Origin: Rossellomorea vietnamensis
Lineage (GTDB): Bacteria; Bacillota; Bacilli; Bacillales; Bacillaceae_B
Direction of reading: 5' to 3'
Assembly (NCBI RefSeq): GCF_025398035.1
Contig: NZ_CP104558.1
Span: 3,142,501 to 3,206,500, forward strand
DNA length: 64,000 bases
The translations under genes and the position numbers were made by a program. Within the stretch, counting starts at the first letter, position 1. Each line of letters begins with the position of its first letter. Shown piece by piece: positions 29,023 to 53,822 of the stretch. A model generated the notes under the pieces. It was not told the DNA's origin, did not search any database, and worked only from the letters and a program-made list of their open reading frames with translations.

Positions 29023-29060
29023 GGTTGTTTTTGAGTTGGGGGGGTATAGAAGTTGGGAGG

Positions 29061-35085: not shown

Positions 35086-35146
35086 TACTTGGAGGTGTCC
35101 TCAACCAGGGCACCTTCCCTACTACATATTGCAAGGAGGAAAACTC

Positions 35147-37746: not shown

Positions 37747-37880
37747 GAAATCATGCGGGGATTGAAGAGGATCATGCCGGATTTAGGATATTCGTGAGGC
37801 AGGTGAGTTTTTCAAGCAGCCTCCTGATTAATCATGCGAAATTCCAAATAATCATGCCACCGTGTCGAAATTTCTTAACC
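37747..37880 (+). repeat. 134-bp six-unit intergenic element, copy 1
   Basis: Units (TCATGC or close) start at 37751, 37772, 37792, 37812, 37832 and 37852: one interval of 21, then four of 20. The conserved flank GTGTCGAAATTTCTTAAC ends 27 bases after the last unit start. Strand given is the one reading ATCATGCGGG. See copies at 40973, 47779 and 52842. Confidence 0.9.
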
Positions 37881-38188
37881 CGAATCCCGTCATCTTTATC
37901 ACGCCAATCCAAACAAAATGGAACACTATCCCATAATTATGACTACAAAACATGTTTGTAACACATATTTAACATATAGGGATGTATGAAGCTCTGTCCT
38001 TTTTACAGTGTTCCCAACGCCGAGACAGCCTTAGGGACGCATGGAACAAAGCATTTTCAAATGACCGGTTTTCCTGTATAATTTTTTATTGTTGTTCAAT
38101 TATCAATACTTAACAGGGTGCGTCCCTTTTACTATAAAGAATAGCTGACATGGAAGAGACGATAGTCCTCACAGGGAAGGAGTTTGTA

Positions 38189-38542
38189 ATGAAGAAACAG
38201 TTTGCTGCTCTATTGATGCTGACCACGATCCTGATTAGTGGATGCGGGGAACAGCCGTTGAAATTCAGAAACCTATTGGAAGCCGATCAATATATCCGCA
38301 ATAATATTGAGAATACGGATTGGGGTACCTTCAAGCTTATGCTGAGTCCGGATAATTCGGTGACGGAAACGGATTTCAATTATCTTAAAGAGAAACTTAC
38401 TTCTCAGCACAAGAGTTATTTTCACACCGAAGCCGTCGATAAATTCTATCGTTTTAATAAGCAGAATGAGCTCGTGTATATGACAGAGTGGGAGAAGAAA
38501 GACGGAGTTCTCCTGTTAAAAGATATAGATTATATTCAATAA
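38189..38542 (+). CDS. Small lipoprotein of unknown function
   Basis: The ATG at 38189 lies 7 bases behind GGAAGGAG and gives 117 residues with a lipoprotein signal (LLMLTTILISGC, Cys18). The mature part (about 100 residues, with ADQYIRNNIENTDWG) looks like a small alpha/beta domain of the kind found in many Bacillus lipoproteins; I do not recognise a named family. It is 27 bases upstream of the O-antigen ligase-like gene and may be co-transcribed with it. Confidence 0.7.
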   Translation: MKKQFAALLMLTTILISGCGEQPLKFRNLLEADQYIRNNIENTDWGTFKLMLSPDNSVTETDFNYLKEKLTSQHKSYFHTEAVDKFYRFNKQNELVYMTEWEKKDGVLLLKDIDYIQ

Positions 38543-38568
38543 ACTAAAAAGACAATGAGGAGTTTAGT

Positions 38569-39936
38569 ATGAATTTTTCCACACTCATGAACAAGTATGA
38601 GCCCAGGCTGAAGCAGATCATCTTGATTTTAGTGGCCGGATATTTGTTCTTCGCGCAATTCTCTACTCAAGCAAAATACATTAAGCTGCTACCTGTACCG
38701 GTTCCGGCGGTATTGACATTGGGAGTCGGGGGATTATTATTTCTCTACTACTTGCTCAATCGAAAAAAATTAACGCAAACTTCTGAGTTTGATAAGTATT
38801 TGAAACGTTTCCTGATCCTGTTCCTGATTTCATTGGGACTGGCCGTACTATCTGCTTTTTACACGGCTACCGTGTTGAATAGTGTAGAATATGTGAACTA
38901 TCTGAAAAGCTCCATGGTCACTCGAATCGCTTACTATATCAGCTTTTTCATGTTTGTCTATTTCGGTTACCGCCTGCTCGTGAATGAGCCGAAGGACAGT
39001 AAGAGCATCATCAACGTTTATGCGTTGTCGATCACTCTTCTAGTGGCGGTGGCATTTTGGCAGCTGGCATACTTCATATTTAATATTCCATTCCTGAATT
39101 TGAACACGCGATCGTTCGTTCACAGCGTGGAAGGGGTGACCCTGTTCGATTTCAGGATTACGTCCTTCACCAATGAACCGAGTTATATGGGACCATTCCT
39201 GATCGACCTGATCATTCTCGGTTATCTTGTCGTGAAGCGTAAATGGGTCTATGCAGTCGCATTGCTTCTGCCGACTCTTTTCATCCTGGCTTTCACTTTC
39301 TCAGTGAGTGCTTACTTTAATCTTGTTATTGTCATCGGATTCCTGATGGTCTATCTCATGTTCCATCCAAGATTCCCGAAAAAGATCCTCTGGATGATTC
39401 CATTGGTCGGGGTCATCGGAATTGCAGGTCTATATCTCGTGAATCCGGATCTATTGGCCAAATTCTTCTCGCCTATCTGGGGGAGAAGGGATAATCTGTT
39501 CGATCCGACACAATCGAGCCGGATTTATATGTACGTCATGCCTTTCAAATGGCTGTTCGATCATTCCATCGTGTCAGGATTGTTTGGATACGGTCCAGGA
39601 GCCTATGAATTCCTGGCAGGAACGAAGATCGTCCCACATACCCAGATGAGCCTGGCGATATCCGCCAATAATATGTTCATCGACGTTCTCTTCGAACAAG
39701 GAGTGGTAGGACTTCTCCTTTTACTCGCAGGTCTTTTATCCATCGCCGTTTTCCTATTAAAGAACGGGATGAAAAATATGTACTACTTCATTGCATTAAC
39801 AGAGTACTTTCACCTGATGGTCACATCCTTATACAGAGCCGATTATGTGACACCAAGGTTCTGGGCAGTCCTATTAGTCATCGCCGTGCTGGTGAAACTC
39901 GGTGAAATGAAGCACAAGCAAAATGTAACGGAGTGA
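38569..39936 (+). CDS. O-antigen ligase/polymerase (Wzy/WaaL-like) membrane protein
   Basis: The 455-residue protein has about 11-12 hydrophobic segments and one long extracellular loop with the features of PF04932 proteins: SRIYMYVMPFKWLFDHSIVSG followed by GYGPGAYEF and, further on, NNMFIDVLFEQGVVG, the usual RxxxW and NxxLxxxxExGxxG-type motifs. It should polymerise or ligate lipid-linked glycan units outside the membrane. With the flippase at 29244 and several glycosyltransferases it suggests a Wzx/Wzy-dependent polymer. Start behind GAGGAG. Confidence 0.88.
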   Translation: MNFSTLMNKYEPRLKQIILILVAGYLFFAQFSTQAKYIKLLPVPVPAVLTLGVGGLLFLYYLLNRKKLTQTSEFDKYLKRFLILFLISLGLAVLSAFYTATVLNSVEYVNYLKSSMVTRIAYYISFFMFVYFGYRLLVNEPKDSKSIINVYALSITLLVAVAFWQLAYFIFNIPFLNLNTRSFVHSVEGVTLFDFRITSFTNEPSYMGPFLIDLIILGYLVVKRKWVYAVALLLPTLFILAFTFSVSAYFNLVIVIGFLMVYLMFHPRFPKKILWMIPLVGVIGIAGLYLVNPDLLAKFFSPIWGRRDNLFDPTQSSRIYMYVMPFKWLFDHSIVSGLFGYGPGAYEFLAGTKIVPHTQMSLAISANNMFIDVLFEQGVVGLLLLLAGLLSIAVFLLKNGMKNMYYFIALTEYFHLMVTSLYRADYVTPRFWAVLLVIAVLVKLGEMKHKQNVTE

Positions 39937-39941
39937 TACAA

Positions 39942-40910
39942 TTGAGTTCATATAAAATCTTTCTATCCTATTTGATCTTTGTGGTTCTTTTGTTCGGCAT
40001 TGTCGTTGGCGTGAAAACAAAAGAGGTGCAAAAAAGTGAATATAAATCGGTCGGAAATGAATATTCACTCCTGAACTTTGGCCTGGGGGAAAGATACCAG
40101 GAAGTGTCCAAGGTCATGAAAAATCCCGAATCCAAGGATGAAGTACTGGATGATGAGAAACAGAAGCTCCGTGTCCATTTTACCGGCGGCGAAGCGGACT
40201 ATTTGATCACATCCAATAAGAAATTCAAGATTGAAAAGACGATCAACGTAGGGGATGATCTCGAAAAGGTCATCGATAACCATCTGGACTTGGACCTTTT
40301 TGAATACAAAGCAGATGAAACCGATGAACAGTCCTATGTCTATATGATCGTGGACGAGCAAACCGTCGTACTTGAAGTGAAAGAAGGTAAAATCTCGAAA
40401 ATCCTTCTCGCCCAGGAGGAAATCCCGGTTGTTGAACTGATCGGTGCCTTCAATGAAGATCTGGCAACCGATGAATTTCTGGAGATGACCGACGAAGAGC
40501 TCCTGGATGAATCCAAAAAGCTCAGCTTCCGGATCGACTACGAGAAAAACAATCGAAAAGTACTTTCTGATGAGTTCCAGCAATATCTCGATGCAGGTCT
40601 TTTACCGGAAACCCCACTGCCAATCGGGTATTCAGAAAAGAACCTATTCAATAAATACGGCGAACCCGTATACATCTTCGAAGGCAAAGGCGATGTCCAA
40701 TTCTTCTATTACTACAAACAATTCAACGCATTTGTAGGATATAACGAAGATAAAAGACTCATCGAAATCAAGTTCCCGGTCAATATCCCGGCAGACGAAT
40801 TTGAAAAGATCCATGGAGATCTTGAAAATGACATGGATCTCGGTGATAACGAACTGAAACTGACTGAAGAGAATGGAACCATTACGGAAATCATTTTAAA
40901 AGAGAAGTAA
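39942..40910 (+). CDS. Membrane-anchored protein of unknown function
   Basis: A TTG at 39942, 8 bases after GGAG, is the likely start; a GTG at 39933 overlaps the previous gene. The product of about 322 residues has one N-terminal helix (IFLSYLIFVVLLFGIVVGV) and an acidic, mixed alpha/beta extracellular part. Two sections look alike (YSLLNFGLGERYQEVSKVM and NLFNKYGEPVYIFEGKG), suggesting a repeated small beta domain. It is translationally coupled to the ligase/polymerase gene, so it may assist polymer export or length control (inference). No family recognised. Confidence 0.75.
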   Translation: MSSYKIFLSYLIFVVLLFGIVVGVKTKEVQKSEYKSVGNEYSLLNFGLGERYQEVSKVMKNPESKDEVLDDEKQKLRVHFTGGEADYLITSNKKFKIEKTINVGDDLEKVIDNHLDLDLFEYKADETDEQSYVYMIVDEQTVVLEVKEGKISKILLAQEEIPVVELIGAFNEDLATDEFLEMTDEELLDESKKLSFRIDYEKNNRKVLSDEFQQYLDAGLLPETPLPIGYSEKNLFNKYGEPVYIFEGKGDVQFFYYYKQFNAFVGYNEDKRLIEIKFPVNIPADEFEKIHGDLENDMDLGDNELKLTEENGTITEIILKEK

Positions 40911-40913
40911 TGG

Positions 40914-40948
40914 AAAAGGTGCAGCCTGTGTGGGCTGCACCTTTTTTT
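40914..40948 (+). terminator. Terminator after the ligase operon
   Basis: AAAAGGTGCAGCC pairs with GGGCTGCACCTTTT over TGTGT, then T-tract. Confidence 0.95.
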
Positions 40949-40972
40949 AGCTTTAACTGGGGAGGGGGTCGC

Positions 40973-41106
40973 GTAAAGAAAATTCGACACGGCGGCACGA
41001 TTATTTGAAATCTCGCATGAATAATCCGCATCCCGCATGAAAAATTTATAACCCGCACGATAATCTTATATCCGGCACGATCCCCTTCAAAACCCGCATG
41101 ATTCCG
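40973..41106 (-). repeat. 134-bp six-unit intergenic element, copy 2
   Basis: On the plus strand the flank GTAAAGAAAATTCGACACG starts at 40973, and units (GCACGA or GCATGA) end at 41000, 41020, 41040, 41060, 41080 and 41101: intervals 20, 20, 20, 20, 21. The element begins 24 bases after a terminator. From 41107 to 41277 I see nothing else. Confidence 0.9.
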
Positions 41107-41280
41107 AAGCGAGGGTACCCCAATGAGGAGAAACCGCCTACTCATACGGCCATAAATCCCCGTCCAGGCTCACACTCCCACCAAAACAGACAAACTTCAG
41201 CTAAAAACCAGTCTAGTGAGAACGAAAACCTCCCATCGAGTGAAATACTCGTAGAGAATCGATCAGCGTAAACCACAAAA

Positions 41281-41317
41281 AAAGAAGCAGACACCCCTAC
41301 CAGGCATCTGCTTCTCT
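41281..41317 (-). terminator. Terminator of the GT2 gene at 41334
   Basis: On the minus strand GAAGCAGATGCC pairs with GGTGTCTGCTTC (one mismatch region) and runs into seven T. Confidence 0.88.
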
Positions 41318-41333
41318 TAAAACCATTCAATCC

Positions 41334-42134
41334 TTACTTCTTCTCATACCGGAATATCTCTCTGAATGCCTTACTGTAATACCCGAACGGCTCCTCCAGA
41401 TGACGATATTTCTTCAACGTAAATAGAGTCAGGAGTACAACAGCTGTCGGCGTATTATACATTCTCTTAAACAAAGGCCCTTTCCCGATAAATGATTTTT
41501 CATATAAGCGGGTCTGCATATCGGGTTTCTCGTGGTTCACGACAACCTTTGGGAAATAGCTGATCGACTTGTTATGCCGTGCTAAATCGAATAAAAAGAT
41601 ATTTTCTTCCCCTGAAGGGTAGATTGCGCCCAATCCGAACTTCTCGTCGAATTGAATGAGGGAGCGTTCGATGTTCGCCGTTTGGATGAAAATTTCAATA
41701 GAAGATTTCTTTAACAGCTTACCGGTTGTAACCTGTTTCTGCTCTTCTTCGTCATATTCTTTGTAGTAGACATTTTTGATCGGGTCATAGATTTGGAAGC
41801 AGGCAACATCCGTTTCCAGGTTCTCGTGAAAATAGTCCACGACCACTTGGAATGAATCATCATTATACCAGCAGTCGTCATCAGAGAACGTCAGGATACT
41901 TCCCGTGGCATGCTCTATGCCAACATTGCGAGCGAGTGATAAGCCTTTGCGATCTATTTCAATATGATTGTATTTAAAGTTAACATCTTTTAAAACGGAT
42001 GTAATATAATTGTGATTGTCTTGTGATACAATAATGACTTCGAAGTCTTTATATACTTGATTATTAAGACTTTCAAACAATCGTTTCAATTCCTCTGGTT
42101 TCGTTCCAAGAGTTGGTACGATTACACTAATCAT
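41334..42134 (-). CDS. Family 2 glycosyltransferase
   Basis: The ATG at 42134 lies 8 bases after GAGGA and gives about 266 residues. The GT-A fold is clear: ISVIVPTLGTKPEELKRLFE, EVIIVSQDN, GLSLARNVGIEHATG and the metal-binding FSDDDCWY. There is no membrane helix. It is a single leftward gene with its own terminator among rightward glycan genes, and probably adds a sugar to a surface glycan. The acceptor is unknown. Confidence 0.9.
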   Translation of the reverse strand: MISVIVPTLGTKPEELKRLFESLNNQVYKDFEVIIVSQDNHNYITSVLKDVNFKYNHIEIDRKGLSLARNVGIEHATGSILTFSDDDCWYNDDSFQVVVDYFHENLETDVACFQIYDPIKNVYYKEYDEEEQKQVTTGKLLKKSSIEIFIQTANIERSLIQFDEKFGLGAIYPSGEENIFLFDLARHNKSISYFPKVVVNHEKPDMQTRLYEKSFIGKGPLFKRMYNTPTAVVLLTLFTLKKYRHLEEPFGYYSKAFREIFRYEKK

Positions 42135-42350
42135 TTTCTTCATCCTCACATCTGAAATTACTCGCTATATTATAGCACATTAAACCTGTGAGATTAAGAA
42201 ATCAATAACATATGGTATAATACTCGTGAAATTTAATGAATTTGGCTCATCAAGAGCGTAAATGGGCCACATTATGCAGAAACTATTTAAAAGACTTCGA
42301 ACCGGTAGAATAAGAACAATGGATTTATACAAAACTAAGAGGTGAGTTCT

Positions 42351-43223
42351 TTGAGAGTGAAAAAAGCGATTATCCCGGCAGCGGGGTTGGGAACACGATT
42401 CCTGCCGGCAACAAAGGCACAACCGAAGGAAATGTTACCAATTGTAGATAAACCTACAATCCAATATATTATTGAAGAAGCCGTCAACTCAGGCATTGAA
42501 GATATCCTGATCGTGACAGGCCGCGGAAAACGTGCCATCGAGGACCACTTCGATAAATCGTTGGAACTGGAAGAAATGCTTGCGATGAAAGAGAAGTATG
42601 ATGAGCTTGAGGAGATCAAGCAAATCTCTCATTTGGCAGACATTCACTATATCCGTCAGAAAGAACCGAAAGGACTTGGACATGCGATCTGGTGTGCGAG
42701 AAAATTCATCGGCGACGATCCTTTCGCTGTCTTACTTGGGGATGACATCGTGATTTCCGAGAAACCTTGTCTGAAACAATTGATCGATGAATTCGAAGAG
42801 AAGGAGTCGAGCATCATCGGTGTACAGGAAGTTTCCGACGAGGACGTATCCAAGTATGGTGTCATCGACGTAGAAGACCCGACGAACGATGGTCCGCTTT
42901 TCAAAGTCAAGGGACTTGTTGAAAAACCGAACCTGGAAGATGCCCCTTCGAACATGGCCATCATGGGACGTTATGTACTGACACCTGATGTCCTGGATAT
43001 CCTCGGGGACCTGGAGCCTGGTCAAGGAAACGAAATTCAATTGACGGACGCCCTTCAAAAACTGAACGAGCAGCAAAATGTTTACGGATATTCTTTTGAA
43101 GGTAAAAGGTATGATATTGGAAACAAGTACGGCTTTGTTCAAGCAACAGTCGAGTTTGCTCTAATGAGAGATGACCTGAAAGGTCCATTGAAAGATTGGT
43201 TAAAAGACATCATTTCAGAATGA
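42351..43223 (+). CDS. gtaB: UTP-glucose-1-phosphate uridylyltransferase
   Basis: The TTG at 42351 is the likely start, behind AGAGGTGA; a GTG at 42342 is too close. The 290-residue product has the GtaB/GalU signature [20 protein letters not shown], then [28 protein letters not shown] and the GEIQLTD-type [10 protein letters not shown]. It makes UDP-glucose, used for teichoic acid glucosylation, glycolipids and, through the next gene, UDP-glucuronate. The residue pattern follows B. subtilis GtaB closely. It forms an operon with ugd. Confidence 0.96.
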
Positions 43224-43239
43224 ACAAGGAGAAATTAAG

Positions 43240-44544
43240 ATGAACATATGTGTAATTGGTACAGGTTATGTAGGACTTGTTTCGGGTGTTTGCTTCAGTG
43301 ACGCCGGGAACAAAGTGACTTGTTTAGATATAGACGCCCAAAAGGTGGAGAACCTGAAAAACGGGATCATTCCCATCTATGAGCCGGGCTTGACGGAATT
43401 AGTGGAGAAGAATATCAATGAAGGCCGCCTATTCTTCACGACGGATTATGCCGAGGGGATGAGTGACGCGGATCTTGTCATCATCGCAGTCGGTACACCG
43501 CCTAAAGAAAACGGCGAGGCGAACCTGCAGTATATCGAAGCGGCTGCCCGTTCGATTGCCGAACACCTGAACGATTACAAAGTGATTGTCACGAAGAGCA
43601 CCGTGCCGGTCGGGACAGGTGCCATGATCAAAGGTGTCATCAAAGAAGTAGTCGGACATGACGAATTCGATGTCGCGTCCAACCCTGAGTTCCTTCGCGA
43701 AGGTTCAGCGATTCACGATACGGTGAATATGGAAAGAGCGGTCATCGGTGTGGAATCAGAGAAAGCGGAAGCGATCCTGAAGGAATTACATGCCCCTTTC
43801 ACTAAAAATATCGTCGTGACGAATATCGAAACATCTGAAATGATCAAATACGCATCCAACGCGTTCCTTGCAACGAAGATCAGCTTCATCAACGAAGTGG
43901 CCAACGTGTGCGAGCTTGTAGGTGCGGACGTAACGAAAGTGGCAGAGGGAATGGGATATGATCCACGGATCGGCCCGCAGTTCCTGAATGCCGGCATCGG
44001 ATATGGTGGTTCCTGCTTCCCTAAAGATACAAGCGCCCTTGTAAAGATTGCCGATCAAGTAGGATACGACTTCAAGATCGTGAAAGACGTAGAAGCAGTG
44101 AACGGGCTTCAGCGCTTCAAAGTGGTCGACAAGCTCGTGGAAGCCTTCAACGGCGACCTGAAAGATAAGAAGATTGCCGTCCTCGGTCTTGCGTTTAAAC
44201 CGAATACGGACGACATGAGGGACGCACCTTCTGTCGACGTCATTCCGAAACTGCAGGAGCTCGGAGCGGACATACTCGCGTATGACCGCATTGCAGAAAA
44301 GAATGCAAAGGCATTGATCCCAAATCTTCGTACGGGTGATGATTTATATGAAGTCATCCAGAATTCAGATGCGATCCTGATCCTGACGGAGTGGGATGAA
44401 GTGAGAGAGCTTGACCTTGAGAAAGTGTCTAAGCTTGTTGAAAGCAAAGTGATCGTGGATGGTCGTAACATCTTCGACCCTGCCCATATGGAAGAGAACG
44501 GATTCTATTATGCATCCATCGGCAGAAAAACCGTTACATCATAA
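43240..44544 (+). CDS. ugd: UDP-glucose 6-dehydrogenase
   Basis: The 434-residue protein has the NAD motif ICVIGTGYVGLVSGVCFSD, the NPEFLREGSA segment, and the catalytic GGSCFPKDTSALV with Cys259, as in TuaD/Ugd. It oxidises UDP-glucose to UDP-glucuronate in two steps. Located 16 bases after gtaB, it gives the cell a direct route from glucose-1-phosphate to the precursor of teichuronic acid or another acidic polymer. A stem (GGTGGATCC/GGGTCCACC) follows without a T-tract. Confidence 0.96.
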   Translation: MNICVIGTGYVGLVSGVCFSDAGNKVTCLDIDAQKVENLKNGIIPIYEPGLTELVEKNINEGRLFFTTDYAEGMSDADLVIIAVGTPPKENGEANLQYIEAAARSIAEHLNDYKVIVTKSTVPVGTGAMIKGVIKEVVGHDEFDVASNPEFLREGSAIHDTVNMERAVIGVESEKAEAILKELHAPFTKNIVVTNIETSEMIKYASNAFLATKISFINEVANVCELVGADVTKVAEGMGYDPRIGPQFLNAGIGYGGSCFPKDTSALVKIADQVGYDFKIVKDVEAVNGLQRFKVVDKLVEAFNGDLKDKKIAVLGLAFKPNTDDMRDAPSVDVIPKLQELGADILAYDRIAEKNAKALIPNLRTGDDLYEVIQNSDAILILTEWDEVRELDLEKVSKLVESKVIVDGRNIFDPAHMEENGFYYASIGRKTVTS

Positions 44545-44550
44545 TAACAA

Positions 44551-44580
44551 AGGTGGATCCTTCACAGGGGTCCACCTTCA
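44551..44580 (+). other. Hairpin between ugd and the GT2 gene
   Basis: AAGGTGGATCC pairs with GGGTCCACCTT over a short loop. No T-run follows, so it may act as an RNA processing or stability stem inside the operon rather than as a terminator. Confidence 0.5.
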
Positions 44581-44604
44581 ATCGGTATGAGAGGAAGTCA
44601 TGAT

Positions 44605-45741
44605 ATGATACTAGAAATAATCTTTTGGCTGCTGATCGTTCTTTCGGTTTATATCTACGCCGGTTATCCGATTCTCTTGAAACTCATAAGTGGAGTAGTA
44701 AAAAAGGATCGAATGACGGAAACGGGCTATGAACCAAAGGTAACGCTCTTCATCGCAGCATACAACGAAGAGAAAGTCATCGCTGAAAAAGTCCAAAACT
44801 CCGTGGAACTTGATTATCCACAGGACAAGCTTGAAATCATCGTTGTCTCAGATGATTCATCAGACAGAACGAATGACATCGTCAATGAGTTTGTGGCGAA
44901 ATACCCGAACGTAAAATTGAATGTCGTGAAAGGCCGGAAAGGGAAGACGGCAGCCCTTAACAAGTCCGTCCCTCTAGCAACTGGTGAGGTCCTCGTATTC
45001 TCTGATGCGAACTCCCTTTACCAGAAGGACGCCGTCCATCATTTAGTGAAGCACTTTAAAGATGAGGAAATCGGCGGGGTTTGCGGAGAGCTTCGATTGA
45101 CGAACCCAACCAATTCATCTATCGGAGAATCAGAGGGCGCTTATTGGAAGTATGAAAAGCTCCTGAAGATGCTTGAGACGGCAACAGGTACGACCATCGT
45201 AGCGAACGGTTCCATCTATGCCCTTCGCAAAGAGTTGTTCAAAGAAATGAATCCGAATGTCGGGGATGATATGCAGAACCCGTTGATCATCATCAGCCAG
45301 CAAAAGCGATTCGTCTATGAGCCAAATGCCATCACGATGGAAGAAACGTCACCAAAGTCTTCAGAAGAATTTGGCCGGAAGGTACGGATCGTCACACGAA
45401 GCTTCACGGGCATCATGAGCTATAAAAATGTCTTGAATCCGTTCAAGAATTTCGATTTCTTCTATAAATACATGTCACATAAATTCCTGAGATGGTTAGT
45501 CCCTTATTATATGATTGCGATCTTCATCATCAATCTATTCTTATTGGATCAACCGTTATATCAAGTCATGTTCGGTTTACAGTTATTATTCTATATCCTC
45601 GCATTGCTAGGAAAAGTGACAAGCAATAAGATTACCTATATTCCATATTACTTCTGCCTGGTGAACTATGCAGCCCTCCTCGGTACCTTGAGAGCGATCT
45701 CCGGTAAGAGGCAGGCCACTTGGACGCCGACTAGTAGATAA
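44605..45741 (+). CDS. Membrane family 2 glycosyltransferase (HasA/IcaA-like)
   Basis: The ATG at 44605 lies 8 bases behind GAGGAA and gives 378 residues. One N-terminal helix (IIFWLLIVLSVYIYAGYPIL), a GT2 catalytic domain (VTLFIAAYNEEKVI, VVSDDSSDRT, VFSDANSLY, GDDMQNPL) and three C-terminal helices make the layout of processive beta-glycan synthases such as HasA or IcaA. The QxxRW motif of processive enzymes is not evident; KVRIVTRSFTG stands there. It follows ugd, so UDP-glucuronate or UDP-glucose may be the donor. Confidence 0.88.
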   Translation: MILEIIFWLLIVLSVYIYAGYPILLKLISGVVKKDRMTETGYEPKVTLFIAAYNEEKVIAEKVQNSVELDYPQDKLEIIVVSDDSSDRTNDIVNEFVAKYPNVKLNVVKGRKGKTAALNKSVPLATGEVLVFSDANSLYQKDAVHHLVKHFKDEEIGGVCGELRLTNPTNSSIGESEGAYWKYEKLLKMLETATGTTIVANGSIYALRKELFKEMNPNVGDDMQNPLIIISQQKRFVYEPNAITMEETSPKSSEEFGRKVRIVTRSFTGIMSYKNVLNPFKNFDFFYKYMSHKFLRWLVPYYMIAIFIINLFLLDQPLYQVMFGLQLLFYILALLGKVTSNKITYIPYYFCLVNYAALLGTLRAISGKRQATWTPTSR

Positions 45742-45750
45742 TGGAAGTGA

Positions 45751-45786
45751 AACCCGATTTGAGTCGACTCAAATCGGGTTTTTTCT
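45751..45786 (+). terminator. Terminator after the gtaB-ugd-GT2 unit
   Basis: A perfect 15+15 palindrome (AACCCGATTTGAGTC and its complement) is followed by T-tract. Confidence 0.95.
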
Positions 45787-45862
45787 GTTCCAGCATGTCG
45801 GAGGATACAATAAAATGTCACTTCTTCGCTTTATAAGTAAGAGGAAAAGTGTTAAAATTTTA

Positions 45863-45876
45863 TTACAATTATGTAA
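45863..45876. promoter_or_regulatory. TTACA-N4-TGTAA palindrome upstream of LTA-synthase-like gene
   Basis: TTACAATTATGTAA is identical to the copy before the amidase operon, but lies only 17 bases from the ATG. Confidence 0.35.
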
Positions 45877-45893
45877 ACGGGGTATAAAAAACT

Positions 45894-47708
45894 ATGAATC
45901 TGGTAAACAAGCTGAAACAAGGATTATTATCCATATGGCAGGACAAACTTTTATTGATTTCTGCCATTGGACTGTCCATTAAAGTTGTCTTATTTTATTT
46001 ATTTTTAGGCAAAGGGTTATTCGAAGTAAAGAGCTTATTCGTTACCCTCCCAGGGACAATCTTGATGTTATTCTCCTTTGTGTTCTTATTCAAGACATGG
46101 TCAAGGAAAACAGTGATCATCCTCATCAATGTGGTGGCCACGTTCCTGCTTCTCGCTCAAATGTGGTATATCCGCTACTTTGGAACACCGCTGTCATTCT
46201 TTGCTGTCCTGCAGACATCGAATCTTTCAGGACTCGGACCGAGCATCCGGGAGCTTATGAACGGACTTGATATCTTATTCGTCGTGGATATCATCCTTCT
46301 ATTCGTCTTAGTGAAAAAGAAATCATTCTCCATCCCGAAGATACACTGGAGAACCTTCATCATCGTGTTCCTGGCAGGTTTCTGTATCCTTGCCGTTAAA
46401 CCGATGAAGAATCACTACATCGATGGAGCTCCATTTGCACAAATCTTCAAGATCTATGATCGATATGATTACATGATGAAATTCAATCCACTTCAATACA
46501 GCGCGCTGGATCTGTACCTGTTCTATCAAAATAACCGGTATATGAATTTAAGTGACGAAGAAAGACAGCTGGTGGAAGATTGGTACAAACAGAAAGATGA
46601 GTTCCGGAAAGAAGATAAGGATCTCCATCCGGAATATAAGGGGATTGCAGAAGGCAAGAACCTGATCCTGATCCAAGCCGAATCCCTTGAAAACTGGGTG
46701 ATCGGACAGAAGATCAACGGCAAGGAAATCACGCCGAACCTGAATCGCCTGCTGGAGCACAGCATCTATGCTTCCAACTTCTACCCTCAAACAAAAGGGG
46801 GCAGGAGCTCGGATGCCGAGTTCATCCTGAACACATCCATGCTTCCGGTGGCAGAGGGAAGTACCTTCTTCAGGTATCCAACCAATCATTACACAACCCT
46901 TCCAGGACTGTTGAAGGAAAAAGGGTATTCCACATTGGCCTTCCATGGTGACGAAGGAACCTACTGGAACCGAAGAGAAGCGTATCCTCATATCGGGATC
47001 GATAAATATTATGACATAGAGGATCTCGAAGAAGGGGAACACATCGGCATGGGTCTGAGCGATGTGGAATTCTTCAAACAATCCGTCGACATCCTGAGCA
47101 AAAAGGAAGATCCGTTTTACGGCCTGATGATCACGCTCACAAGCCATACGCCGTTCATCCTGCCGGACACATACAGAGAACTGGAATTTGAATCTCAATA
47201 TAGTGAAACGTCCGCGGCTAATTATCTGCAGACCATTCACTACCTGGATATGGCGATCGGTAAAATGATAGCTGACCTGGAAGAGCGGGGCATGATGGAC
47301 GACACCATCGTAGCCATTTACGGAGATCACGCCGGATTTGAAAACAGCTACAAAGAAAAAATGATGAAGGAAAATCCGAAAGTCGAGGGAATCGATGAAT
47401 TAGGAAGAGTACCATTCATCATTTACAATCCTGAATTTGAGAAACTTGAAATCACGAAAGCCGTAGGTCAGATTGACATGTACCCGACTCTGGCTTACAT
47501 GCTTGGAATCCCTGAAGAAAAATATGACCAGTCCATCACAGGCCGAAACATCCTCACGACAAAAGAAAGTTTCGCTGTGATTCCGCTGGAAAACAAAATC
47601 ATCATGGAAAACGAAGCAGACCAGGCACACAAAGAGTTCGAACTACGTGCACAGCAAGTATCTGATCTGGTCATCCGCAGTAATTTCTTTGAAGAAGAAG
47701 AGGAATAA
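45894..47708 (+). CDS. LTA synthase family protein (sulfatase domain)
   Basis: The 604-residue protein has five N-terminal membrane helices and an extracellular sulfatase-fold domain with NLILIQAESLENW (metal Glu), TKGGRSSDAEF (nucleophile site), FHGDEGTYWNR, LTSHTPF and VAIYGDHAGF (metal Asp-His). LtaS enzymes polymerise glycerol-phosphate from phosphatidylglycerol. At the nucleophile position Ser305 replaces the Thr found in LtaS (GKTSD to GRSSD). It may be a paralogue such as a primase or a synthase of another polymer. The ribosome site is weak (GGGG 12 bases from ATG). Confidence 0.9.
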   Translation: MNLVNKLKQGLLSIWQDKLLLISAIGLSIKVVLFYLFLGKGLFEVKSLFVTLPGTILMLFSFVFLFKTWSRKTVIILINVVATFLLLAQMWYIRYFGTPLSFFAVLQTSNLSGLGPSIRELMNGLDILFVVDIILLFVLVKKKSFSIPKIHWRTFIIVFLAGFCILAVKPMKNHYIDGAPFAQIFKIYDRYDYMMKFNPLQYSALDLYLFYQNNRYMNLSDEERQLVEDWYKQKDEFRKEDKDLHPEYKGIAEGKNLILIQAESLENWVIGQKINGKEITPNLNRLLEHSIYASNFYPQTKGGRSSDAEFILNTSMLPVAEGSTFFRYPTNHYTTLPGLLKEKGYSTLAFHGDEGTYWNRREAYPHIGIDKYYDIEDLEEGEHIGMGLSDVEFFKQSVDILSKKEDPFYGLMITLTSHTPFILPDTYRELEFESQYSETSAANYLQTIHYLDMAIGKMIADLEERGMMDDTIVAIYGDHAGFENSYKEKMMKENPKVEGIDELGRVPFIIYNPEFEKLEITKAVGQIDMYPTLAYMLGIPEEKYDQSITGRNILTTKESFAVIPLENKIIMENEADQAHKEFELRAQQVSDLVIRSNFFEEEEE

Positions 47709-47714
47709 AGAGTG

Positions 47715-47746
47715 AACGCCTGTCTCCTTGGGGGATGGGCGTTTTT
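47715..47746 (+). terminator. Terminator after LTA-synthase-like gene
   Basis: AACGCCTGTCTCC pairs with GGATGGGCGTT and is followed by T-tract. Confidence 0.85.
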
Positions 47747-47778
47747 TTGGCTGGAGTGTGGCGTGGCTCGTGAACAGG

Positions 47779-47912
47779 GTAAAGAAAATTCGACATGCCG
47801 GCATGATTATTGCGAAATGTCGCATGAAAATCTAGAATTCCGCATGAAAAACCCATAACCCGCACGATTATCCTATATCCCGCATGATCATGGTCCATTC
47901 CCGCATGATTAT
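47779..47912 (-). repeat. 134-bp six-unit intergenic element, copy 3
   Basis: The plus strand shows GTAAAGAAAATTCGACATG from 47779 and units ending at 47806, 47827, 47847, 47867, 47887 and 47908 (intervals 21, 20, 20, 20, 21). It has one extra base between the first two units relative to copies 1, 2 and 4. The rest of the gap up to 48170 shows no gene or repeat. Confidence 0.9.
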
Positions 47913-48170
47913 CCTGCGCCGACGTTCCGAGCAAAGAATAATCCACCTGATCCGGCCCATTGGCTGCATTCAGGAGCACACTCTCAGCTAAAACATACAA
48001 ATTAAAGGTAAAATACACAGGTTCAAGCACGATATAACGTTAAAATGCTTTCTAAGGCCTTCTCCTGCGATCTGAGTCGTAGACAGGCTATAGTGACTAT
48101 CCGTATCCAAACGAACGCAATTTAACGCATTTCCTGTCGAATGCGACACAAACCATTCCAATCATAAAAA

Positions 48171-48202
48171 AGAAAACCTTGGATATCCATCCAAGGTTTT
48201 CT
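48171..48202 (-). terminator. Terminator of tagO
   Basis: AGAAAACCTTGGAT pairs with ATCCAAGGTTTTCT; the minus strand runs into T-tract. Confidence 0.93.
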
Positions 48203-48239
48203 AGTAAACTAGCATTTCCGTCAAATAAACGGGTGCGTA

Positions 48240-49301
48240 TTAACGTTCACGCAGTTTCTTCATCGTATTAAGAAGCGGTTTGTGCTGACCGATCAGTCCG
48301 ACCACTTCTGCAGTCAGTTGAATCAATATGACAAGCACTGCAGAGAAAAGAATGGCTCCCCATAGGGTAGATCGTGTGAAAAGAATGGCACATAGTCCGA
48401 AAAATGCTCCGATCGCATAGATGATCAGTACGGTTTCTTTATGAGAGAAGCCCATGTCCAGTAAGCGATGGTGCAGATGCGATTTATCTGGTGCTGAAAT
48501 CTTTTGTTTATTAAGGATACGTCGGATGATGGCAAAGAACGTATCGAAGATCGGTATAGCCAGGATGATAATTGGAACAACTAAACTGAAGATCGTCACA
48601 CTCTTGAATAATCCAAGCAATGAGATGATCGATATACAATAGCCAAGGAACAGGGCTCCAGTGTCACCCATAAAGATCTTGGCAGGGTTAAAGTTGAAGA
48701 ACAGGAATCCGATGGTCCCACCGATTAAGATTACCGTAAGGGCAACCACCATGTATTGGCCATTCATGGCTGCGAGAGCCATGATGGACGTCATGGCGAT
48801 GACGGATACTCCGCCTGCCAGTCCATCTAAACCATCAATCAGGTTGATGGCATTGGTGATACCGACAATCCATAAAATCCCGAACACATAACTGAAATTC
48901 CCTAAATATATACGCTCTGCCACAAACGGCAATGTGATAAAGTCAATTTTAAAATCCGCAAACACGACGATGCATGCTGCCAGGATTTGTCCAACAAGTT
49001 TTGCTTTTGGTGATAGGGTGAAGCGGTCATCAAGGATCCCGACGATCAGGATGATTCCTCCCCCAAGAATGACGGGCCATAGTGGTAAGATCAAATCATT
49101 CAAGTACAACAGGCCGGCTGATGCACCGATGACGATCGATAATCCACCTACACGGGGCATTAGCCCTTTATGGACCTTTCGATGATCCGGTTTATCGACA
49201 AAGCCAAATCGTTTGGCGAATTTGATCACTAATGGAGTCACTGCTACGGAAACAACTAAAGAAATAGCAAAAGCAATTACAAAATCAATTAGAGAGTACA
49301 T
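48240..49301 (-). CDS. tagO: Undecaprenyl-phosphate GlcNAc-1-phosphate transferase
   Basis: The ATG at 49301 follows AGAGGTGAACGA and gives 353 residues with about ten membrane helices. MraY/WecA family motifs are clear: HRKVHKGLMPRVGG, GILDDR, NAINLIDGLDGLAGG, KIFMGDTGALFLG and DKSHLHHRLLDMG (the HxHH motif). It starts wall teichoic acid and related polymers by placing GlcNAc-phosphate on the lipid carrier. It is a single leftward gene. In B. subtilis tagO also lies near yvyE and degSU. Confidence 0.94.
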   Translation of the reverse strand: MYSLIDFVIAFAISLVVSVAVTPLVIKFAKRFGFVDKPDHRKVHKGLMPRVGGLSIVIGASAGLLYLNDLILPLWPVILGGGIILIVGILDDRFTLSPKAKLVGQILAACIVVFADFKIDFITLPFVAERIYLGNFSYVFGILWIVGITNAINLIDGLDGLAGGVSVIAMTSIMALAAMNGQYMVVALTVILIGGTIGFLFFNFNPAKIFMGDTGALFLGYCISIISLLGLFKSVTIFSLVVPIIILAIPIFDTFFAIIRRILNKQKISAPDKSHLHHRLLDMGFSHKETVLIIYAIGAFFGLCAILFTRSTLWGAILFSAVLVILIQLTAEVVGLIGQHKPLLNTMKKLRER

Positions 49302-49675
49302 TCGTTCACCTCTTTTTCTTCTATAGGCACTCCAATTGTAAGAATAACACATATTTGATGATGTGCAACACTTTTTTAAAGGCAAGAATTACTAAAATGC
49401 GTAGTGGGTTCATTTGTCAAAAAATGAATTGAATTTACTTACTTAGACGTCGAAATACAAGTAAAAGTTTCAAAAAGTAACAAGTTATTTACTACTACCC
49501 CATAACCAGATCATCTTAAACGTCAGTTTGTCCGATTAATTTCACCATTGTAGGCGAAAATAATGGAGAGCACTATCCGTCAAAAGAGTCATTTTTTCGA
49601 GGGTACTCTCTATACAATTAGTATGAGTTTAATGATGGCGTTGTAAGAAAAAAGATTTTTCCAATCTAAACATTT
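49302..49675. other. Gap between tagO and yvyE
   Basis: A/T-rich sequence that must hold the tagO promoter. I see no convincing small gene, repeat or strong hairpin. Confidence 0.5.
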
Positions 49676-50320
49676 TTAGGAGTCGGTTACTAAAGGGGAT
49701 TCAAGGTATTCCACATCACCCTCCGTTATGACGGCCTGCCCATTTGTCAGCTCAGTCATCCATTCCGTGAATGCAGATGTATTTGCTTCTTCCACATAGA
49801 CCTCAACCTCTACAGACTCCAGGTAATGAATGTCCTTCAGTTGATAAGGGGAGGATCTCACTTCATTCTCCACTTTCCCGAGCCACGTATAATCAATCGT
49901 GGACTTCATGATGCGCATCAATCTTCTTTCGACGATCCCTGTCGCGTTCAAGCCTTCAGACGTGGCCCGTCCATACGCGCGGATCAGTCCGCCAGCCCCA
50001 AGCTTGATCCCGCCAAAATAACGTGTCACCACAACGACAGTGTCCTTCAAGTCCCGCTTTTTCAACACTTCCAGCATCGGAACCCCGGCTGTCCCACTCG
50101 GTTCTCCGTCATCATTCGCTTTCTGGGTCATATTCTGCTCGCCGATCATATAGGCAGAGCAGTTATGATTGGCATCATGGTGCTTCTTTTTGATCGATGC
50201 AATGAATTCCTGAGCATCTTCCTCGGTCTCGACCCGATTCACATAAGTGATGAATCGTGAGCGTTCGATATTGATTTCATTTTCTCCAAAACCCTTGACG
50301 GTATTATACTGATGTAGCAA
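49676..50320 (-). CDS. yvyE: YigZ/IMPACT family protein YvyE
   Basis: A TTG at 50320 lies 8 bases behind AAAGGAG and gives 214 residues starting LLHQYNTVKG; ATGs further upstream are badly spaced. Motifs HWDATHNCSAY-like (HHDANHNCSAYMIG), KANDDGEPSGTAGVPMLEVL and VVTRYFGGIKLGAGGLIRAY are the family signature. The role is unsettled; IMPACT-like proteins are linked to translation control. The gene is divergent from degS, as part of the B. subtilis-like tagO, yvyE, degSU neighbourhood. Confidence 0.93.
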   Translation of the reverse strand: MLHQYNTVKGFGENEINIERSRFITYVNRVETEEDAQEFIASIKKKHHDANHNCSAYMIGEQNMTQKANDDGEPSGTAGVPMLEVLKKRDLKDTVVVVTRYFGGIKLGAGGLIRAYGRATSEGLNATGIVERRLMRIMKSTIDYTWLGKVENEVRSSPYQLKDIHYLESVEVEVYVEEANTSAFTEWMTELTNGQAVITEGDVEYLESPLVTDS

Positions 50321-50827
50321 AATCATTTCTCCTTTCATGATTGCCGCAGCTTACGACAAAGTCCGCGCTTATATCCTAATTCTACTATATAGAAAAATGG
50401 TGAAGAATGCACAATTCTGGATGCTTTCCACGGCAAAAACTGGTTCTGCATGAAATAATGGTAATACAATGTAATCAAACTTTAATCTCCGACAATATGT
50501 GACATGGTATAATGGACGCTGATAGTAATACTTCAGTTGTTCCAACGCTTCATTAGGGAAGCCGAATGGTCTAGATAATTGCCATAGTTTCTCTATTATT
50601 CCTGGAGCGAATAATCCCTTGGTAGAAGTATTACATAGGAATATGCCTAGATGAATAAAGGAGTTTAGTGACTTTCCATTGAAATGATAATAGGTACGAT
50701 CTAGTATAGATGAACAGTAGGTCTATGGACATGATGTCCTGAACGAATAAAACCGATTATTACTATGCAAGGATAGTTTCCATGAAGCTAGGCGGACGAC
50801 TATTGTGGAACAAAAGAGGGGTGTACC
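50321..50827. other. Divergent yvyE/degS control region
   Basis: This gap of about 500 bases holds the degSU promoter. The last part (50782-50838) contains an 18-codon frame starting ATG 9 bases behind AAGGAT, whose stop (TAA 50836-50838) overlaps the degS start, so it could be a leader peptide. Nothing else is evident. Confidence 0.45.
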
Positions 50828-51970
50828 GTGTCACTTAAAAAAATAGACACCAAGATGTTGGATAGCATCCTGAAAAAGATGGTCGATACGGTTGACGAAA
50901 GTAAGGATGAGATCTTCCAGATTGGCGAGCAATGTCGAACTGATTATGAAGAATTGATGAGAGAATTACTGGAAGTGAAAGAAATGGTCCTGAGGGTGAT
51001 TGATGAAGGAGATGAACTCCAGCAGAAATCAAAGTTTGCCCGGCTCAGACTATCTGAAGTCAGCAAGCATTTCCAAACCTATTCAGAAGACCAGGTAAGA
51101 GAAGCGTACGAGAAGGCTCATGACCTGCAGATGAAGCTATCCATGAACCGACAGCAGGAAAAGCAGCTTCGGAACCGCAGGGATGAACTGGAAAGACGCT
51201 TGCAGGCACTCGGGGACACGATTGAAAAGGCAGAGAATCTCTGCTCACAGATATCCGTCGTTCTCAATTATTTGAATAGTGACTTAAGGCAAGTGGGCGA
51301 GGCGCTTGAGGACGCGAAGCAGCGGCAGGATTTCGGGCTACGGATCATCGAGGCCCAGGAGGACGAGCGGAAGCGCTTATCCCGGGAGATCCATGACGGC
51401 CCTGCTCAAATGATGGCCAATGTGATGATTCGCTCGGATCTGATTGAACGAGTATTCAGGGAAAAGAGTACAGAGCATGCCATCACGGAAATCCGCGATT
51501 TGAAACGGATGGTCCGATCAGCCCTTTATGAGGTCCGCCGCATCATCTATGACCTCAGACCGATGGCGCTTGATGACCTCGGGTTGATACCGACCCTCAA
51601 AAAATACTTGAGTACAATCGAAGAGTATAACCAGGAGACCTCCATACAGTTTGTGAATATGGGGCTCGATATCAGACTTCCTTCCAAATTCGAAGTCGCT
51701 CTGTTCCGGTTGGTACAAGAAAGTGTCCAGAATGCCCTTAAGCACGCAGAAGCCACGCATATCCAAGTTAAAGTAGAAGTAAAGAAAGACCAAATAATAG
51801 TTGTCATCAAAGACAACGGCAAGGGATTCGATAAAGACAAACAAAAAACAGGATCCTTTGGAATCATGGGGATGAAAGAACGTGTCGACCTTCTCGAAGG
51901 AGACATCACGATTGACTCAAAAGTAGGAGCAGGGACGGTCATACTGATCCAGGTTCCGCTTAATACGTAA
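50828..51970 (+). CDS. degS: Sensor histidine kinase DegS
   Basis: The GTG start lies behind AGAGGGGTG and gives 380 residues. An N-terminal coiled coil (about 1-170) replaces membrane segments, as in cytoplasmic DegS. The HisKA_3 phospho-acceptor is His189 ([16 protein letters not shown]), and the ATPase domain has [14 protein letters not shown] and [11 protein letters not shown]. DegS phosphorylates DegU and so controls exoenzymes, competence, motility and biofilm formation. Followed at 29 bases by degU. Confidence 0.97.
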
Positions 51971-51999
51971 ATTTTCGAAGGTTTAGGGAGGCGAAAGAC

Positions 52000-52677
52000 A
52001 TGGCAACAAATATTGTTATCATTGACGATCATCAGCTTTTCAGGGAAGGGGTTAAACGAATCCTCGAATTCGAACCTTCTTTCAACGTAGTAGCAGAAGG
52101 TGATGACGGTTCAGAAGCAATGAACCTCGTCGAAGCACATGAACCCGACGTAGTCCTCATGGATATCAACATGCCTGAGACAAACGGCGTGGAAGCGACT
52201 CGTGAACTAATGGACAAGTACCCGGATACGAAAGTCATCATCCTGTCCATCCACGATGACGAGAACTATGTGAACCATGCACTGAAAACGGGTGCACTTG
52301 GTTACCTATTAAAAGAAATGGACTCAGACGCACTGGTTGACGCTGTGAAAATCGTCGCTGAAGGCGGTTCATACGTCCATCCTAAAGTGACGCATAATCT
52401 GGTTGCAGAATACAAGCGCCTGGCAAACGCCCAAAATTCAGGCGGGTTCCAGCAATCCGAAGTTCGCCGCCCGCTTCACCTGTTAACACGCCGCGAATGT
52501 GAAGTCCTGCAAATGCTTGCAGACGGTAAGAGCAACCGTGGCATCGGTGAAGGATTATATATCAGTGAAAAGACTGTTAAAAATCATGTAAGTAATATAC
52601 TACAAAAAATGAACGTAAACGACCGTACCCAGGCAGTAGTCACTGCCATCAAGAACGGTTGGGTGGAAGTACGATAA
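52000..52677 (+). CDS. degU: Response regulator DegU
   Basis: The 225-residue protein has a receiver domain ([18 protein letters not shown], phospho-acceptor Asp55 in LMDINMP, conserved Lys in LKEMDSD) and a NarL-type LuxR helix-turn-helix: [38 protein letters not shown]. DegU is highly conserved and this copy follows the B. subtilis sequence through the DNA-binding region. Its targets in that species include exported proteases and wall enzymes, so genes in this window may be regulated by it (inference). Confidence 0.97.
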
Positions 52678-52718
52678 GGTCCGGTTGATAGATAGAGTAT
52701 TGTGAATTTGTTGTTGAG

Positions 52719-52752
52719 AGAGCGGCCCTTCCTGGTGGAGGGTCGCTTTTTG
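52719..52752 (+). terminator. Terminator of degSU
   Basis: GAGCGGCCCT pairs with AGGGTCGCT (one mismatch) and is followed by T-tract. Confidence 0.75.
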
Positions 52753-52841
52753 ATTGTCTGTTTTGGGTGGGAGTGTGGTCCGGGAAGGGGATTGTTGGCC
52801 GTATTAGAGGCGGGATCTCCTTAGTTGGGTTCTTTTCACGG

Positions 52842-52974
52842 GGAATCGTGCGAGTTTTCGGGGGGATCATGCGGGATTAGAGATAATCGTGCGGGAGATG
52901 GAATTTTCATGCGGGGTTGTGATTAATCAAGCGAGATTTCAAATAATCGTGCCGACGTGTCGAATTTTCTTTAC
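52842..52974 (+). repeat. 134-bp six-unit intergenic element, copy 4
   Basis: Units start at 52846, 52867, 52887, 52907, 52927 and 52947 (intervals 21, 20, 20, 20, 20), and the flank GTGTCGAATTTTCTTTAC ends at 52974, 27 bases after the last unit start. It lies between degU and the convergent treR. Confidence 0.9.
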
Positions 52975-53062: not shown

Positions 53063-53092
53063 AATCCACTCCCCAATCCAGGAAGTGGACCA
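53063..53092 (-). terminator. Terminator of treR
   Basis: On the minus strand TCCACTTCC pairs with GGGGAGTGGA and runs into seven T. Confidence 0.88.
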
Positions 53093-53099
53093 AACTCAA

Positions 53100-53822
53100 T
53101 CAATGCTTTCTCCGTGCAAAATCCACAAACCGGAACATGTCCAGCCTGTGCCGCGATTCTGTGTACTCAAACAACGTCGCATCTTTCAAATGGACATAGT
53201 TCTTCACAACTACTACATGATCATATTCATTCAGATCCAGATACTCCCGGTCTTCATCCGTACACTCTTCCACAACAATTTCTTTTTTGGCAAAATCGAT
53301 GGGCAGTCTGAGCTCTCCCTCGAGATATTCATAGATGGAGTTCTCACATATTTCTTTTGTCAGGAGAGGGACTTGATCTTTAAGAAAATAGGACTTGTCC
53401 AAAATGATCCTTTCGCCGCCGATTTTACGGGAACGGACGACTTTCCAAATTTCAGCGTCACGGGACGTTTCTAGTTGAGTAGCGATCCCTTCATCGGCAG
53501 AAATCAATCCGAAGTCGTGGACAAACGTCTCGATCTGATCGCGACCCATGGAGGTCTGCAGCTCTTTAAAGCTTACCAGTCCTGAGATGGGAAAGCTCAT
53601 GCGGGACACGTCGAGGACGAGGGAGCCTTTTCCGCGCAGTTTCTGTATCAGCCCTTTTTGAGCAAGTAATGTAAGCGCTTTACGAATAGTCTCACGTGAA
53701 GTGGCATAAATCACCGAGAGCTCGTTTTCCGATGGCAGGATCGAGTTCGCTGTGTACGTGCCGTTCTGTATTTTTTCAGAGAGATCCTCGAAGATTTGTT
53801 GGTATTTATTGCTTTTCGTCAT
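53100..53822 (-). CDS. treR: Trehalose operon repressor TreR (GntR/UTRA)
   Basis: The 240-residue product has a GntR winged helix (LPSENELSVIYATSRETIRKAL, LRGKGSLV) and a UTRA effector domain ending ESRHRLDMFRFVDFARRKH, which is close to the B. subtilis TreR C-terminus. TreR represses tre genes until trehalose-6-phosphate binds. Its operators are visible at treP and treA about 7-8 kb away. In B. subtilis treR follows treA directly; here an LXG operon and two other genes lie between. No operator is seen at its own start. Confidence 0.95.
   Translation of the reverse strand: MTKSNKYQQIFEDLSEKIQNGTYTANSILPSENELSVIYATSRETIRKALTLLAQKGLIQKLRGKGSLVLDVSRMSFPISGLVSFKELQTSMGRDQIETFVHDFGLISADEGIATQLETSRDAEIWKVVRSRKIGGERIILDKSYFLKDQVPLLTKEICENSIYEYLEGELRLPIDFAKKEIVVEECTDEDREYLDLNEYDHVVVVKNYVHLKDATLFEYTESRHRLDMFRFVDFARRKH

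Follow-up and report, generated by a model that had tools for sequence, protein, structure and literature searches.

Dispersed Arrays of About Six Words at a Two-Turn Pitch behind Gene Ends of Rossellomorea Look Like Protein-Docking Sites

A 64,000-nucleotide stretch of the Rossellomorea vietnamensis chromosome (NZ_CP104558.1, positions 3,142,501 to 3,206,500; hereafter the window) carries four intergenic copies of a short non-coding array, and related arrays were recovered across the genus. They consist of about six copies of a short word set 20 base pairs (bp), or two helical turns, apart, with a longer first step of 21 bp, and of a 16-bp tail that lies mostly towards the 3' end of a gene or ribosomal RNA (rRNA) operon. 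Word cores and tail are under constraint, and arrays within the genus differ in word while keeping the frame. Such dispersed blocks of spaced words past gene ends look like an undescribed kind of protein-docking site, and the class may be wider than the genus, as similar arrays of 20/21-bp pitch occur at some loci of other Bacillales. The original prediction, which was made from the window alone, knew of no named family for the element, and this stands: no published description or catalogued family of such arrays was found in the open-licence literature, and Rfam at gathering score gave no match in the window and only rRNA and purine riboswitch neighbours at 33 further loci. A known RNA family was rejected on this absence of matches to the element.

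Architecture of the Element

The genome of the window (4.52 Mb) is referred to as G000; other G numbers denote other genomes, and L numbers fetched loci. Four copies with six spaced units had been predicted in the window and all four are present, as listed here with their associated features (window coordinates).

37747..37880, + strand: copy 1, units starting at 37751, 37772, 37792, 37812, 37832 and 37852
37863 (start), + strand: tail of copy 1, TGTCGAAATTTCTTAAC
40973..41105, - strand: copy 2, six units; tail at 40973-40989, towards the 3' end of open reading frame (ORF) 39933-40910 (+)
47714..47744, + strand: terminator-like hairpin (consensus match) between the ltaS-like gene and copy 3
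47779..47910, - strand: copy 3, six units; tail at 47779-47795
52717..52751, + strand: terminator-like hairpin (consensus match) for the degU-like gene, ending where the head flank of copy 4 begins
52752..52841, + strand: head flank of the 'long form' (GATTGTCTGTTTTGGGTGGGAGTGTG...GGCCGTATTAG...), starting where the degU terminator ends
52842..52974, + strand: copy 4, units starting at 52846, 52867, 52887, 52907, 52927 and 52947; tail at 52958-52974
53063..53091, - strand: terminator-like hairpin (consensus match) of the GntR-family gene, adjoining the tail of copy 4

Across these four copies the units resemble TCRWGC and are followed by a less strict GGGATT; their sequence varies, as had been noted (for example, copy 1 has TCGTGA as its third unit). 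Counted within the element, the units begin at offsets 4, 25, 45, 65, 85 and 105 in copies 1, 2 and 4, giving the predicted spacings of 21, 20, 20, 20 and 20 bp, while copy 3 (offsets 3, 24, 44, 64, 84 and 105; spacings 21, 20, 20, 20 and 21) has one extra base between units 5 and 6. The tail consensus of the six-unit element is TGTCGAATTTTCTTTA, also given as TGTCGAATTTTCTTTAC, and in all four copies its end lies 27 bases beyond the start of the last unit, again as predicted.

The tail of copy 3 is directed towards the 3' end of a sulfatase-family ORF (45894-47708, +), which we take to be ltaS, and that of copy 4 towards the 3' end of a GntR/UTRA ORF (53100-53822, -). Copy 4 is also 3' of a response-regulator ORF (52000-52677, +), labelled degU because it follows a DegS ORF, and the flank at its head has similar counterparts at copies 2 and 3 and in G017 and G031. 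In copy 1 it is the head, not the tail, that is directed towards the 3' end of a SpoIID/CWB2 ORF (35129-37411). A coding sequence was rejected, as the 20-bp pitch is not a multiple of 3 and shifts the frame at each unit; overlapping ORFs differ among the copies.

Periodicity and Conservation

The pitch was recovered independently of any profile, by searching for five or more 8-mers in a chain, stepped by 20/21 bp and matching at 6 of 8 positions. Within 363 kb of the genome of the window, 18 arrays were found, all of them known copies (18 of 22), against none in three shuffles; looser settings bring additional matches. In the window, three of the four copies were found at 20/21 bp and nothing at six other periods. 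The region of ackA (acetate kinase), comprising 125.6 kb from 30 of 36 genomes of the genus, gave 23 arrays at 20/21 bp and none at 14/15, 17/18, 23/24, 26/27, 29/30 or 32/33 bp. Six units were present in 14 of these 23 arrays, five in 6 and seven in 3; in the tail-anchored set described below, 68 of 87 arrays of type I, the word type of the window, have six.

Eight phases of the ackA-region arrays are 85% identical and the other 12 phases 39%; the eight are enriched by the search itself and the 12 are not, and the arrays are therefore not plain tandem repeats. The first step is also distinctive. With ties broken towards 20, the distance from unit 1 to unit 2 is 21 bp in 55/80 type I, 19/26 type V and 5/6 type II arrays, while type I steps 2-3 and 3-4 are 20 bp in 80/84 and 83/84 arrays. 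The step from the last unit to the tail, 11 bp in 119/120, is largely fixed by anchoring and is not used as evidence.

Comparison of flanks linked copies from several species as orthologs, in the same place and orientation, and grouped them into 17 linked components. A first run used 11 of these. The 1823 group, the L117/L133 pair and four large components of mixed or tandem make-up were set aside, and some members, mostly partial copies, were dropped from others (2/8 of ack, 2/6 of 1849, 1/5 of 4107, 1/3 of X108 and 1/3 of 1872); mean identities were 0.905 for cores, 0.89 for tail, about 0.72 for spacers and 0.53-0.58 for flanks. Because these exclusions could flatter the result, the comparison was rerun with 13 components and all members except one 48-base ack fragment. 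The means were slightly lower and kept the same order (cores 0.889, tail 0.855, spacers 0.700, flanks 0.54-0.57), and cores were better kept than spacers in 13/13 loci. The original prediction had seen selection on spacing. This holds in that the pitch and the 21-bp first step are kept across different words, but the word is constrained as well (cores 89%, spacers 70%).

Location at Gene Ends

By gene calls, 19 of the 22 copies of the genome have a tail that points at the 3' end of a gene or of an rRNA operon, a count that includes three copies directly after 5S rRNA which ORF calls alone misread; none of the 22 lies between divergent genes. Where neighbouring genes are co-directional, the tail is towards the 3' end in 12/15 copies of this genome (p = 0.035). 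In a multi-genome set of 125 copies, 112 of them with genes on both sides, the corresponding figures are 51/70 for the tail and 19 for the head (p = 0.0002, orthologs not being independent). A 5S rRNA directly precedes copies in G000, G003, G004, G007, G022 and G031. Not all copies are close to their genes: those at 1805841 and 1872324 sit 391-451 bp from the 3' end, and the one at 3209070 is the tandem partner of 3208725. It had been proposed that each copy lies 3' of a rightward transcription unit, in both orientations. This is true in the window, but what holds across copies is that the tail is turned towards a transcription unit's 3' end, which accounts for there being two orientations; copy 1 is an exception.

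Copy Number and Distribution

A profile built from sequence only (R1) was made from 14 of the first 16 copies, leaving out L007 (misaligned) and L009 (five units). In the window it matches exactly four sites, all of them among its training copies, and nothing else at an expectation value (E) up to 10. The whole genome contains 22 copies at E<1e-14, plus three weak matches (E 0.01-0.74). All 22 are of type I and fall within 1.80-4.11 Mb, leaving the first 1.8 Mb empty; the probability of this under uniform placement, about 1e-5, is overstated because the gap was noticed afterwards and the copies are clustered, 7 of the 22 lying inside 3.13-3.21 Mb. At E<=0.001 the profile matches 23 of 36 genomes of the genus, that of the window included, and 1 of 25 other genomes. 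A strict pattern searched against 84,980 species genomes gave 39 stretches, titled Rossellomorea (vietnamensis, aquimaris, arthrocnemi, sp.) or Bacillus sp.; it recovers only 57/125 known copies, so that 39 is a floor. Across 299 genomes of the order, under stricter filters, 25 match, of which 17 are outside the genus, where the matches are weak and mostly unit arrays without a tail. One match to the profile from beyond the genus, L059, seems to be another kind of repeat and was discarded.

Viral contigs gave no match to the strict pattern, and plasmids and phages none with one copy as query; a phage or plasmid element was rejected on these grounds. Local tandem copies do occur, with arrays about 345 bp apart near a LysM/NlpC gene and about 196 bp apart behind ltaS in G035 (L099, L139, L307), and some amplification is therefore real.

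The Conserved Tail

The core of the tail, TGTCGAA, is identical to the core of the Spo0A box, and conservation of the tail spans 16 bp. The 0A-box core is given as TGTCGAA in a published account (PMC3485338). Over 103 profile-aligned copies from relatives, each of the seven TGTCGAA columns carries 1.61-1.92 of 2 bits. An estimate free of profile and tail comes from 26 arrays (the 23 of the ackA region and three of the window): exact TGTCGAA, pointing away, stands just beyond one end in 15, in the opposite sense in 1, and the reversed word in none. The higher frequency of 127/135 in the tail-anchored set is partly circular, since a tail-like expression had been used to choose those sites.

With at most one mismatch, the tail 16-mer has 266 sites in the 36 genomes of the genus, against 21 for a reversed control. 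In the genome of the window, 12 of 14 such tails belong to copies, and the other two are upstream of abrB and beside spoVG. The abrB gene is a known Spo0A target. The 16-mer is upstream of it in G000, G003 and G007 (AbrB was confirmed by Pfam in G000), and in G000, at about 2.792 Mb (L374 11640-12240), six TGNCGAA boxes fall within 360 bp, one of them inside the tail 16-mer. A Spo0A roadblock at abrB is mentioned in the discussion of one report (PMC12090719). A second tail pattern, TTTGTCGAAAAATCT, is not specific, because it also matches many non-array sites.

As a separate observation, the 16-mer beside the 3' end of spoVG (L374, about 562) has no evident array, and matching sites are present in L375 (G003) and L376 (G007).

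Word Types and Orthologous Loci

Arrays of the same pitch within the genus carry other words, namely TTGATCC, TATGAGCC, ATTGCGCC and TTCAAGCC. Among 199 distinct tail-like sites (fetched loci of the genus assigned to a genome; L159-L197, L332-L342 and L357-L365 are outside the count), in 135 the six units upstream resemble one another more closely than those of 99.5% of shuffles, where about one would be expected by chance. These comprise 87 of type I (TCATGC), 26 of type V (TTGATCC, TTAATCC), 6 of type II (TATGAGCC), 4 of type IV (ATTGYGCC), 3 of type VI (TTCAAGCC) and 9 others, the share of type I being inflated because most loci were fetched with a type I profile. Units of a single array agree to 79%, those of different arrays of the same type to 80% and those of different types to 35%, the types being themselves defined by word. 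Several words may be present in a single genome, as in G007 and G032.

Orthologous loci illustrate the difference of words. The 3' end of ltaS has type I arrays in G000 and G003, four type V copies in tandem in G035, and one copy plus the start of another, at a contig end, in G018; in G017 a type V array lies about 600 bp away. At degU, type I arrays with the long head flank are found in G000 and G031, a type V array with a similar flank in G017, a worn type V-like array in G007, five type I units without a tail in G013 and a remnant in G003; G014 may hold a trace of an array. The ackA locus has type I arrays in G000, G004, G013, G015, G020, G022 and G032, and a type II array in G007. When the spacers of 102 type I and 11 type V arrays were compared, their own order came out best among 120 permutations, which points, if weakly, to descent of the arrays from one another.

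Similar Arrays in Other Genera

Following up weak profile matches in other genera brought out arrays that have a pitch of 20 or 21 bp and use different words. At L223 (G312), six TCGCCGGAAT units are spaced 21, 20, 20, 20 and 20 bp, while G136 and G282 contain very long arrays of 27-37 units; no tail was evident by eye in the arrays of other genera. A profile-free search of 280 kb from 14 other genera gave 1 array at 20/21 bp, 1 at 17/18 and 2 at 26/27, so that the 20/21-bp pitch is not in excess in random stretches of these genera. Loci of other genera fetched by tail pattern (L366, L370, L372, L378-L384, L386-L391) had no six-unit array evident by eye, and L385, L392 and L393, the last from the same genus, gave no match to the expression used.

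The loci L228, L229, L234 and L235, from another genus, hold 27-37 units of ATCGAGCA-type words at a 20-bp pitch.

Discussion

The arrays may well be phased sites to which a sequence-specific DNA-binding protein attaches, together forming a directional boundary past terminators; we place this reading just short of probable. Each would offer about six putative binding sites, two helical turns apart, as a directional set, with the conserved 16-bp tail and its perfect predicted Spo0A box at the gene-proximal end. One protein, or a small set of paralogous proteins, would bind the units on one face of the DNA, and as its specificity drifted the arrays would follow. The nucleoprotein block so formed would mark a boundary past the terminators. 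It would most likely serve as a back-up stop for transcription that reads through, and Spo0A at the tail might set it in stationary phase or sporulation. Such a function is suggested because of the place of the arrays behind gene ends, and the step from binding array to boundary is the weakest of the proposal. In its most extended form, which we regard as rather doubtful, paralogous proteins of changing specificity would dock on the six sites, arrays would be rewritten accordingly, Spo0A would license the block, and relatives across the Bacillales would use other words.

If the units are protein sites, the genus marks many gene ends, rRNA operons included, with a docking array for which we found no existing name, and the Spo0A box at one end would tie that array to the sporulation decision. 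If true, the recognised word would have changed repeatedly with the frame kept, providing a natural series in which to follow the co-change of DNA-binding specificity and dispersed sites.

A number of observations weigh against this reading. Terminator-like hairpins in the window region are in no clear excess (18 against 13.7 in shuffles, standard deviation 3.7). Three of the 22 copies of the genome (3180248, 3327389 and 3900333) have the head towards the 3' end, and in the multi-genome set 17/112 copies were scored between two 5' ends, 13 of which are left when four gene-call artefacts of the rRNA group are removed. Among the 26 arrays found de novo, 11 are without an exact TGTCGAA, TATCGACC-type arrays among them, and the conservation of the tail extends past the 0A box, so that another factor may read it. 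The copies in the conservation test came from a profile search, which favours conserved cores, and two loci, 3327 and 1872, have spacers less well preserved than the head flank. A single regulator does not account for genomes that carry several words. The stretch of about 520 bp read at degU showed no array in 7 of 12 relatives (G020, G022, G023, G015, G014, G035 and G018) which, with the one remnant, indicates that arrays are easily lost. Finally, single ortholog pairs of different word have spacer identities of 0.33-0.50, no better than the 0.41 of random pairs, and homology at single loci thus rests on position, tail and head flank.

A non-autonomous mobile element appears unlikely. Under this reading a transposase or recombinase would recognise the units and tail and insert copies next to terminators in a single orientation. 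Several observations are consistent with it. Copies are dispersed, clustered and in places tandem, about 345 or 196 bp apart; their presence varies among close species; an oriented position at the terminator side is typical of some mobile elements, such as group IIC introns; and different words in one genome would simply be separate element families. One copy of the genome, at 4017658 (L073), lies between two convergent transposase ORFs of 392 amino acids, of the Mutator family by Pfam for one of them, but no other transposase was recognised by eye, without a family search, among the ORFs neighbouring the genome's own copies. Orthologous copies persist in place and orientation across species, with cores better kept than spacers, and nothing was found in viral contigs, plasmids or phages. 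The ackA and degU loci, the two that were read closely by eye for empty sites in relatives, appear as replacements and a deletion remnant (G003 at degU), with no clean empty site or insertion. Terminal inverted repeats were not seen by eye in alignments of 16 and 14 copies, in which the ends of a mobile unit are undefined. Recent spread of a mobile miniature element, which the original prediction had also offered, is accordingly not favoured as the main story.

We consider it quite improbable that the arrays act through topology, the two-turn periodicity allowing some 130 bp to wrap or bend and so to retain a nucleoid protein or gyrase past heavily transcribed units. The length of about 134 bp, the period, the location behind genes including rRNA operons, and the occurrence of this pitch with unrelated words at certain loci in other genera would all suit such a role. 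Conservation of the word within arrays (85% over eight phases), however, exceeds what a bending signal needs, GC content by eye alternates once per 20 bp and not per 10, and a gyrase preference should not differ between sister species.

Equally improbable is an RNA element transcribed from the neighbouring gene, be it a Rho-use site, a sponge or a target for multi-site RNA binding. Orientation is tied to the adjacent transcription unit, and a transcript running from the gene into a type I array would be C-rich and unstructured. Of the gene-side strands, however, only that of type I shows this C-richness (skew +0.15). Those of types V and VI and of arrays outside any type lean towards G (-0.21 to -0.48), as do, to a small extent, those of II (-0.09) and IV (-0.11). 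A Rho site therefore does not generalise, and this reading was rejected. Folding of both strands of the four window copies (8 folds) gave none beyond shuffles (z -1.24 to +2.35), on which a structured RNA was also rejected, and the pitch fits the DNA helix. Neutral minisatellites, born by slippage and kept by chance, are very improbable: 20-bp arrays of 27-37 units in another genus and tandem copies do occur, but 8 of 20 phases are conserved (as enriched by the search) with 12 near background, the commonest unit number and the first step recur between words, and cores are kept better than spacers at orthologous loci; a neutral tandem repeat was rejected on the phase conservation and the core-over-spacer identity.

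Returning to a binding array, several known repeats offer partial parallels. The REP/BIME elements of enterobacteria are, like the arrays, dispersed and intergenic, often at the 3' ends of transcription units, but their units are palindromes that fold, whereas the arrays are direct repeats with a fixed two-turn pitch and fold no better than shuffled sequence. BOX and RUP of pneumococcus, and bcr1 and related repeats of the Bacillus cereus group, are likewise small, dispersed, non-coding repeats of low-GC Gram-positives, some of them modular; we know of no six-unit 20-bp frame or word switching among them. Iteron arrays at plasmid origins and centromeres share with ours the direct repeats of about 20 bp in helical phase. 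Unlike iterons, the arrays are dispersed over the chromosome behind gene ends, and no replication or partition gene was recognised by eye beside the copies of the genome. With 0A boxes the tail has the exact core in common, and it differs from them in being conserved over 16 bp and in standing behind genes, not at promoters.

A further parallel is offered by the mammalian Sal-box arrays, which are bound by TTF-I behind rRNA genes in the RNA polymerase I (Pol I) system. Both are repeated, directional, placed behind transcription units including rRNA genes and built from species-specific words, the protein sites of the arrays being putative. The Sal box belongs to eukaryotic Pol I, while the arrays also stand behind many protein genes. 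The proposed boundary system, if true, would be a bacterial counterpart of eukaryotic ribosomal DNA terminator and replication-barrier arrays.

Another Repeat in the Window

Apart from the arrays, positions 29054-29153 of the window contain tandem 25-bp units with inverted TGTACC/GGTACA halves, present as three overlapping 50-nucleotide copies that are 70-72% alike.

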